DNA of 45,503 nucleotides, taken from assembly GCA_026393455.1 (NCBI GenBank), contig JAPLAE010000024.1, positions 1 to 45,503 on the forward strand. The letters are read 5' to 3'. This stretch comes from Actinomycetota bacterium. GTDB lineage: Bacteria; Actinomycetota; Acidimicrobiia; Acidimicrobiales; Acidimicrobilacustridaceae. The notes beneath the pieces were generated by a model, which saw only the letters and a program-made list of their open reading frames with translations, was not told the origin of the DNA and did no database searches. Positions 15,235 through 20,070 of the stretch are shown here, piece by piece. Each line of letters starts with the position of its first letter. Within the stretch, counting starts at the first letter, position 1. A program made the position numbers and the translations under genes.

Positions 15235-16527
15235 ATGACCATAGATAGCTCATCGGACATCGACTTCAGCGACATTGACGTCACCGACCTTGATGTCTTT
15301 GCCCAGCGTCATCCCCACGAGTGGTTCACGTTCCTACGCGAACAGGCTCCTGTTTGGCGTCACCCAGCATCTGAAGGAAGCGACGGTGAAGAGTTCTGGG
15401 TCGTGAGTTCGTTTGAGCACGTCACTGAAGTCCATCGTTCTGGTCTTCTCTACAGCCATCAAACAGGTCCGGGCCGCAATGGCGCAGGAGGGATCGCGCT
15501 CACTGACCTTCCCGCTGAAATGGGTCCAGGGCTTCAGATGGTTTCAACTGACCCGCCCCAACACACTCGCTATCGCAAACTCGTGAATTCCGGCTTTACA
15601 CCGAGGATGATCCGCCGACTCGAGGAAAGCCTCCGTGAACGAACTACGGCAATCCTCGATCGCGTGACACCAAAGGGTGAATGTGACTTCGTTACTGAAG
15701 TTGCGGCCGAACTTCCGCTTATCGCCATCGCCGAAATCATCGGTGTACCCGAAGAGGATCGATCTCTCCTCTTCGACTGGTCGAACAGGATGATCGGTGG
15801 ACAGGACGACGAGTTCAAGACGAGCGAAGTCGGCGCTAGCGACGAATATGCCAACACAGTGATGGAAATGGCGATCTACGCCCATGGACTCACCGATAAA
15901 AAGCGTGAGGTTCGAGGCGATGACCTCTGGTCGCGTCTCATCGACGCAAGCGTGACGATGGAAGACGGTTCGGTAGTTGAACTCTCAGAACTCGAGCGCG
16001 ACCTCTTCTTTACTCTTCTCGTTATCGCTGGCAACGAAACCACGCGCAACGCGATCTCTAAGGGTCTCATCGCGTTTATGGATCATCCTGATCAATGGCA
16101 GCGGTGGCTCGAACACCCGGAAATGGCCGACACGATGGTCGATGAAATCCTTCGTTGGACCAGCCCAGTCAACTTCTTCCGTCGCACCGCAACTGCTGAC
16201 ACCATCCTCGGGGGTCAGCGCATCACTACCGGAGAAAAAGTTGTTCTTTGGTATCCGTCGGCCAATCGAGACGAAGCCCAGTTCCCCGATGCCGACTCAT
16301 TCGACATTGCCCGCACTCCGAACAATCACGTGGCCTTTGGTGCAGGTGGGCCCCATTTCTGTCTCGGTTCAAACCTCGCGAAACTTGAGATCAAGGTAAT
16401 GTTCGAAGAACTCGGCAAGCGAGTACCCGACATTCATCAGTCAGGACCGACGGAGCGACTGCGAATGAATCTGGTCGATGGCATCAAACATCTTCCGGTC
16501 TCGTTCAACGCCACACCCTCGTCATAA
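15235..16527 (+). CDS. Cytochrome P450
   Basis: A complete P450 of 430 residues. It has the C-helix DPPQHTRYRKLV (106-117), I-helix IAGNETT (264-270), ExxR at E304-R307 and heme loop [11 protein letters not shown] with C376. These fit the bacterial CYP125/142-like group that oxidises steroid or isoprenoid side chains in mycobacteria, but the substrate is not shown by the sequence. The CoA-transferase gene follows after 15 nt and the sulfatase-like gene after that. The divergent TetR gene is probably its regulator. Confidence 0.95.
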   Translation: MTIDSSSDIDFSDIDVTDLDVFAQRHPHEWFTFLREQAPVWRHPASEGSDGEEFWVVSSFEHVTEVHRSGLLYSHQTGPGRNGAGGIALTDLPAEMGPGLQMVSTDPPQHTRYRKLVNSGFTPRMIRRLEESLRERTTAILDRVTPKGECDFVTEVAAELPLIAIAEIIGVPEEDRSLLFDWSNRMIGGQDDEFKTSEVGASDEYANTVMEMAIYAHGLTDKKREVRGDDLWSRLIDASVTMEDGSVVELSELERDLFFTLLVIAGNETTRNAISKGLIAFMDHPDQWQRWLEHPEMADTMVDEILRWTSPVNFFRRTATADTILGGQRITTGEKVVLWYPSANRDEAQFPDADSFDIARTPNNHVAFGAGGPHFCLGSNLAKLEIKVMFEELGKRVPDIHQSGPTERLRMNLVDGIKHLPVSFNATPSS

Positions 16528-17775: not shown

Positions 17776-20070
17776 ATGAGCGAGAACAAGACCTCCGGCA
17801 CCTACCCCGGTTTCGGCGGAAAAGTAGGGCGCGTCTTCGCCACCTCGGAATCCTGGTGGCCCGAGCGTCCGGTCTCGCCGGAAAACGCGCCCAACATCGT
17901 CATCCTTGGCTACGCCGACACTTCCCCATACGGAAGCGAAATCGCAACGCCGAACATCGAACGCTTAGCGAGCAACGGCCTCCAGTACAGCAACTACCAC
18001 TCAACTCCGATGTGCTCGCCAACGCGTGCCGCCCTCCTCACCGGCATGAATCCTCACGCTGCCGGTGTCGGAACCGTCGCACACGCCGATCCCGGCTTTC
18101 CTGGTTACGCGATGGAACTGGCCGAAGACGTTGTCACACTTCCTGAGACCCTTCGAGCGAACGGTTATGCCACCTACATGGTCGGCAAATGGCATCTGGC
18201 CAAAGACTCTGACCAATCCGATGCCGGGCCGCGTCACTCGTGGCCTTGCCAGCGAGGCTTTGATCGCTTCTACGGATTCCTCGACGGATTCACAAACCTT
18301 CATCAGCCTCATCGCCTGGTTCGCGACAACACGCCGGTCGATACCGACACCTACCCCGACGGCTACTACTTCACCGACGACATCACCGACGAAGCAATTG
18401 CCATGATCAAGGCGGGCAAAGCCTCGGCCCCCGACCAACCGTTTTTCCTTTATGTCGCTCACGGCGCAATTCATGCACCCCTGCACGCGAAGGCTGCCGA
18501 CATTTCGGCCCAAAAGGGGAACTATTCCGGAGGCTGGGACGAACTTCGCCTACGACGCTTCGCTCGCCAAAAAGAGCTCAGCGTCTTTGGCGACGAGGTC
18601 GTGCTGGCTCCTCGCAACACCGAAGCCAACAATGACGTCGAGCCATGGGATGAACTTTCCGACGACCAGAAGCAACTTTACGCGCGCTACATGGAAGTGT
18701 TCGCTGCCATGGTCACCAATGTCGATGACAACACCGGGCGACTCCTCGACACCCTCGACGACATGGGCGAACTCGACAACACCATCGTCATCTTCACTTC
18801 CGACAATGGGGCCTCTCGTGAAGGCGAAATGGTCGGCACCAGCGCGTACATGGCCCATGTCGGCCATGAAGGCGACGACATCGAGACCGACCTCTCGCGC
18901 ATCGATCTCATTGGCGGCCCACAAACTTCTCCGCATTACCCGCGTGGCTGGGCGATGGCGGGCAACACACCGTTCCGTCTGTACAAGATCAACACCCATG
19001 CGGGCGGGCATACCGTCCCATTTCTTGTTTCGTGGAAGGCCGGAGGTTTCAATGGCGGAACACTTCGACACCAGTACTCGCACGTCTCAGACATCTTCCC
19101 GACGCTGCTCGACATCCTTGGCATCGAACCCCTCACTAAGCGAAACGGAAATTCGGTAAAGCCCATCACTGGCTCGAGCATGACCCCGACACTCGCGTCG
19201 GCCAATGCCCCCGACCAGCGCACTGAAGCTGTTTACGAAATGATCGGTCACCGTGGCTTCTACCGGGACGGTTGGGAAGTCGTGACACTCCATCAGCCCA
19301 TGACGCCGTTCGATGATCGCGAATGGGAGCTCTACAACCTCGCTGTTGATCGCACTGAACTCAATAACCTCGCTGAAAGCGAACCAGAGAAGCTCGCTGA
19401 ACTCATCGACGCCTGGGACGAAGCTGCGTGGGACGGCCAGATCTACCCGCTCGATGAAGGAATCGGTCTTAAGTACGTCCTTCGACCACCGCGCACTGTC
19501 GTCTTCGAAGAACCACTTGCCATCTGGCCGGGAACGCCGACGCTCGAACGTTGGCGATCGCTGATGTTGATCTGGCTTCGGTCATTTCGGATTGAAGCAC
19601 CAATCACCGTCCACGAAGGCGCTATCGGAACTATCGCGGCACACGGCGATCAAAGTGGCGGCTACGGCCTCTACATCATCGAGGGTCAACGACCCACGCT
19701 CGTACATCACACTGGTCGAGGCGATCTCGCGATCGTCACCGGTCCATCGCTCTCCCCCGGCGACCACCTACTCGAATGTTCATTCGACGCGATCGGCAGC
19801 CGAACATGGAAGCTCTCGCTCACCGTCGATGGTGTGACGGTCGACGAACATCCTGAAGTGCAGATGCTGTTTGCGATGTCGCCGTTTGAAGGAATCAGCG
19901 TCGGGCGCGACCCTCGTTCGCCAGTGTGGTGGGAACGATACGAAACCCATGGTTCGTTCCACTGGACCGGAACACAGGGACCTGTCCGCTGGATTCCAGG
20001 CGACAAGGATCCCGATCAACCCGAAGACCTCATCGGTCTCCTTCGAATGCTCGGCGAGAAATTCGAATAG
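17776..20070 (+). CDS. Sulfatase-like protein apparently lacking the metal-binding DD pair
   Basis: A 764-residue type I sulfatase homologue that should hydrolyse a sulfate ester. C80-S-P-T-R is the formylglycine motif, K138/H140 in GKWHLA, H233 in HGAIHAP, D342/N343 in TSDNG, and a lysine in FRLYKINTHAGG are all kept. But between PN (39-40) and GYAD (45-48) only IVIL remains, where I recall about nine residues ending in a DD metal pair. A roughly five-residue in-frame deletion would explain this. Activity may be lost or altered. A C-terminal beta region of about 150 residues follows residue 600. It is the third gene of the P450-CaiB operon. Confidence 0.9.
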   Translation: MSENKTSGTYPGFGGKVGRVFATSESWWPERPVSPENAPNIVILGYADTSPYGSEIATPNIERLASNGLQYSNYHSTPMCSPTRAALLTGMNPHAAGVGTVAHADPGFPGYAMELAEDVVTLPETLRANGYATYMVGKWHLAKDSDQSDAGPRHSWPCQRGFDRFYGFLDGFTNLHQPHRLVRDNTPVDTDTYPDGYYFTDDITDEAIAMIKAGKASAPDQPFFLYVAHGAIHAPLHAKAADISAQKGNYSGGWDELRLRRFARQKELSVFGDEVVLAPRNTEANNDVEPWDELSDDQKQLYARYMEVFAAMVTNVDDNTGRLLDTLDDMGELDNTIVIFTSDNGASREGEMVGTSAYMAHVGHEGDDIETDLSRIDLIGGPQTSPHYPRGWAMAGNTPFRLYKINTHAGGHTVPFLVSWKAGGFNGGTLRHQYSHVSDIFPTLLDILGIEPLTKRNGNSVKPITGSSMTPTLASANAPDQRTEAVYEMIGHRGFYRDGWEVVTLHQPMTPFDDREWELYNLAVDRTELNNLAESEPEKLAELIDAWDEAAWDGQIYPLDEGIGLKYVLRPPRTVVFEEPLAIWPGTPTLERWRSLMLIWLRSFRIEAPITVHEGAIGTIAAHGDQSGGYGLYIIEGQRPTLVHHTGRGDLAIVTGPSLSPGDHLLECSFDAIGSRTWKLSLTVDGVTVDEHPEVQMLFAMSPFEGISVGRDPRSPVWWERYETHGSFHWTGTQGPVRWIPGDKDPDQPEDLIGLLRMLGEKFE

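Follow-up and report, generated by a model that had tools for sequence, protein, structure and literature searches.

A sulfatase gene without its first metal-binding aspartate pair in the consensus of one draft actinobacterial genome

The window, a 45,503-bp stretch of DNA from a draft Actinomycetota assembly, encodes a putative sulfatase that, compared with the relatives we examined, carries a deletion on its first metal-binding aspartate pair, while the rest of the open reading frame (ORF) is intact. We favour, at roughly 60%, a recent loss-of-function allele of an ordinary sulfatase over a new kind of protein. The deletion is known from the consensus of one draft assembly, the only genome of its species examined. 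The gene and the positions discussed below are as follows.

17776..20070, + strand: ORF of 764 aa, candidate type I (formylglycine-type) sulfatase (PF00884), open throughout
17890..17895, + strand: codons of P39-N40, conserved residues ahead of the metal strand
17903..17905, + strand: deletion junction, where 15 bases of five close relatives are missing (two equivalent placements, 1 shared base)
17908..17919, + strand: codons of G45-Y46-A47-D48, with D48 lying 8 residues past N40
18013..18027, + strand: formylglycine motif C80-S-P-T-R84, intact
18187..18195, + strand: K138-W-H140, intact
18472..18474, + strand: H233, intact
18802..18807, + strand: D343-N344, second metal-ligand pair, intact

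The sulfatase ORF and its 15-base deletion

In a Pfam profile search the ORF matches PF00884 with 195 bits (E 2.3e-57; cut-off 25), and by this domain together with the formylglycine motif C/S-x-P/A-x-R, present as CSPTR at residues 80-84, it would be classed as a type I (S1, formylglycine) sulfatase. With a score so far above the cut-off, annotation would likely call the protein active. The ORF joins the profile only from position 13, whereas the intact orthologue L014 joins at position 1, with 214.2 bits. The nearest solved relatives found by phmmer are arylsulfatases: PDB 7all is the top match (E 9.5e-84, best stretch residues 38-354), followed by a group of 536-residue arylsulfatases with 4cxk (E 3e-82) and 1hdh (E 6.9e-82). 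The last of these, described in PMC5066984 as Pseudomonas aeruginosa AtsA of SulfAtlas family S1_4, aligns over residues 44-549 and presents the formylglycine and D-N motifs in the order seen in the window protein, but is described there as having Asp13-Asp14, and it comprises 536 aa against 764 aa for the window protein. The 7all protein differs by a five-residue insert, containing DD, exactly opposite the gap in the window protein.

The five closest relatives are same-genus orthologues (L006, L007, L008, L009 and L014), which are 95-96% identical to the window protein, have the same start, share C-S-P-T-R and GKWH with it, and all have a CoA-transferase gene upstream, as in the window. Where the window protein reads PNIVILGYAD, these five read PNIVIILCDDLGYAD and keep ILCDD at the metal strand; the Asp-Asp that follows PN, i.e. 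the first calcium pair, is absent from the window protein. The original prediction, made from the letters of the window alone, had proposed an in-frame loss of about five residues including DD. Alignment with the close orthologues bears this out, with DD in five of five and the window alone without it, and sets the size at exactly 15 bases against L007. Taking these 15 bases out of L007 reproduces window positions 17888-17926 with zero mismatches; the same removal leaves one mismatch to the window in each of L008, L009 and L014, and four in L006.

Deletion by slippage in one step was rejected, as the junction shares only 1 base. By eye, a two-step path is possible, in which one of two ATC codons was lost and then a segment between CCTT repeats 12 bases apart. 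The window protein fails the published Ca-binding 1 pattern in both its strict and its loosened form, a failure that by itself proves little because many DD-bearing relatives fail too (the strict form matches only 25 of 54 such relatives, the loosened form 41).

Outside the first metal pair the active site is complete in the residues we checked: C80, R84, K138, H140, H233, D343, N344 and K404 are all present. On re-reading of the sequence, P39-N40, IVIL, G45-Y46-A47-D48, C80-S-P-T-R84, K138, H140 and H233 all stand where they had been placed by the original prediction; the second metal pair is likewise kept, but its numbering (D342/N343) was off by one and is corrected here to D343/N344. This second calcium pair, with its Asp-Asn-Gly pattern, appears as NTIVIFTSDNG at 335, and the pattern is found in 53 of 54 relatives as well; GKWH, at 137 in the window protein, is in all 54. 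For the histidine of the PFF..H motif, the strict published pattern gives no match in the window protein and matches only 27 of the 54 relatives, while a loosened form finds PFFLYVAHGAIH at 222 and matches 49 of them.

Conservation and role of the aspartate pair

A search of a genome collection returned at least 587 relatives of the window protein, and DD is present in all of the best 80 of these at least 587, as read row by row by eye; a family-wide absence of the pair is thus ruled out. The sole relative found on a viral contig also keeps DD. Alignment A2 contains 54 of the best 80, and in every one of these 54 exactly six residues separate PN from DD. The fixed spacing and the conservation of DD rule out a chance wording of a variable region. 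The genus is represented by 21 genomes; apart from the window's own, 17 of them have a match of at least 70% identity over most of the protein, a count that leaves out two partial matches covering the site (G006:C208 at 78% and G002:C148 at 58%). All 17 of these orthologues, as fetched, keep DD, and they are hardly independent evidence because 14 of them seem to coincide with members of the best 80.

The shortened junction itself was sought by a degenerate pattern specific to that junction. It occurs in one of 37 genomes of the family and in one of 397 genomes of the order (an even sample of a larger set), in both cases the window's own. A literature search for DD-less or pseudo-sulfatases and for ARSA D30H, made with particular word combinations, found nothing.

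The role of the pair is known from characterized sulfatases. The metal-site descriptions name as calcium ligands Asp31/Asp32 in sulfamidase (PMC4014121), D45/D46 in iduronate sulfatase (PMC5472762) and Asp13/Asp14 in AtsA (PMC5066984); the last source gives conservation among 4058 aligned sulfatases as 96% for Asp13 and 76% for Asp14, and a review describes calcium as essential in sulfatases (PMC10154612). In human sulfamidase two disease alleles are reported at the second of these positions, D32G with early and D32E with late onset (PMC4014121). What they share with the window gene is a lost or altered ligand in the first calcium pair, but as described each replaces a single residue, and sulfamidase is only distantly related within the family.

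Selection and the surrounding genes

Against the five close orthologues, the window gene gives dS of 0.37-0.62, dN of about 0.02 and dN/dS of 0.034-0.057. Its private changes number 5 nonsynonymous to 19 synonymous, compared with 17 to 123 for the other five genes summed (odds ratio 1.9, Fisher p=0.33), so that relaxation is not clearly visible in them, though a weak one would be compatible with these counts. The low dN/dS and the private changes therefore indicate a gene constrained for most of its lineage's history, and from such long constraint it follows that the deletion is recent, bound to the strain, or not real. Long-standing pseudogenisation found no support, given the low dN/dS; a long-dead gene should show more relaxed change.

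Two genes lie upstream of the sulfatase in the same direction.

15235..16527, + strand: cytochrome P450 gene (PF00067), absent here in L006 and split in L008
16543..17748, + strand: CoA-transferase family III gene (PF02515), directly upstream of the sulfatase, no gaps against relatives

Downstream, on the opposite strand, are another P450 gene and a nitronate monooxygenase-type gene. This context suggests the breakdown of some sulfated organic compound.

For the indel background of the region, relatives' ORFs of at least 150 aa from L006, L007, L008, L014, L131 and L132 (five genomes; L131/L132 are records of L009/L014) were searched against the window with tblastn at E 1e-30 and at least 60% identity. 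Every row of the sulfatase frame contains five gaps and all other rows contain 0; many of the latter stem from spurious ORFs in other frames, and a local alignment may leave the ends of an ORF unseen. A generally raised number of indels in the contig was accordingly rejected for the neighbouring ORFs compared. At the DNA level, small gaps against close relatives are found e.g. between genes and in nearby pairs that cancel, and in L014 where the sequence has diverged, at 24-26 kb. Against more distant relatives such gaps are common, and some fall within the sulfatase gene (three bases near 18865). The P450 gene of L008 is without 41 bases opposite window position 15841, and its ORF is split, by either a real loss or an assembly error.

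Loss of function, consensus error and other readings

The first strand ends without both aspartates and three residues next to them, a loss that should abolish activity. Without the pair, calcium would not be properly bound, the formylglycine nucleophile would not be oriented, and sulfate esters would remain uncleaved; a sulfatase in this state may also fold poorly. That the reading frame is still open would follow from the length of the loss, a multiple of three, and from its youth, which has left no time for further decay. We infer both the loss of activity and the existence of the deletion in the organism.

The main rival, which we consider unlikely, is that the consensus records a mistake of sequencing or assembly, or else a minor variant, and that the living population has an intact enzyme. 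The genome is a fragmented draft (152 contigs, 82.86% complete), selection that has stayed purifying to the present day is the pattern of an intact gene, and the L008 P450 indicates that odd small losses do occur in such assemblies. A second sulfatase gene of the same assembly (L004, G000:C108:2873-4030, + strand; PF00884) has an isolated internal TAG where all four relatives fetched (L127, L128, L129 and L130) are open, and an isolated lesion in two of five sulfatase genes fits either gene decay in the lineage or errors in the consensus. Against an error, a k-mer assembler would hardly create a junction with 1 shared base without supporting reads, and the neighbouring ORFs compared show no other gap.

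If the deletion is real, the protein might still work, with D48 moved to where the second Asp would sit, giving a one-Asp metal site. D48 follows N40 at a distance of 8, just as the second Asp does in the relative tested, the remainder of the ORF is conserved, and a table in PMC4014121 appears, tentatively, to give phosphonate monoester hydrolase a single Asp (Asp12) at the first metal site. The Asp retained, however, would be the less conserved of the two (76%, against 96% for the one lost; PMC5066984), which makes a working one-Asp site improbable; the loop that follows would also have to make up for a first strand shortened by five residues, and the pattern for this junction matches none of the other genomes among the 397 searched. 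More specifically, a natural sulfatase with a rebuilt one-Asp site, in which GYAD is pulled back and activity is kept or shifted, seems to us very improbable. The slimmest chance of all goes to a pseudoenzyme that only binds, holding its sulfated substrate uncleaved, and is retained for that role. Its ORF, formylglycine motif and H233 are indeed intact, but five scattered private amino-acid changes in one genome give no sign of a new selected role, and sulfate binding should weaken too once the calcium ligands are gone, since two sulfate oxygens are described as coordinating calcium in iduronate sulfatase (PMC5472762).

A working variant and a binding-only protein are thus the least likely readings, ranked below the loss-of-function allele and the consensus error. 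Of the functional outcomes proposed at the outset, abolished catalysis is what the published structures lead one to expect; a changed activity or a role in binding only found no support, with the junction in one of 397 genomes and private changes that are unremarkable. If the deletion is real, the loss-of-function allele would be a clean natural case of a metal site lost in one short step with the frame surviving; if it is an error, the gene is a caution against inferring function from single draft genomes. Either way, existing knowledge of sulfatases is unchanged.

Maturation and other sulfatases in the genome and genus

FGE-type PF03781 has no match in the window's genome at E 0.001, but a radical-SAM maturase gene matches TIGR03942 with 460.1 bits over positions 1-362 of 363 (G000:C91:14562-15722). 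Judged by this profile match, a formylglycine-generating system is predicted for the organism, and a genome without sulfatase maturase was rejected. Counting the window's own, there are five PF00884 genes in the genome. L001 and L002 have both DD and the Cys motif, L004 and its relatives L127, L128, L129 and L130 have DE instead of DD at the metal site, and the scan of L005 showed no such motif pair.

Across the genus, PF03781 is found in one of 21 genomes, as an incomplete match on the edge of a contig, though the genus sulfatases carry Cys motifs; TIGR03942 is above its cut-off in 11 of the 21. Five genomes that are at least 93% complete and have the sulfatase (G007, G010, G015, G018 and G020) are below the cut-off for both profiles, with TIGR03942 matches only near 40 bits, and loss at contig ends is possible. 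In G014, a run of distant sulfatase-like matches (C29:1756-17443) comprises nine distinct open frames by their listed lengths and is possibly a locus for a sulfated polymer.
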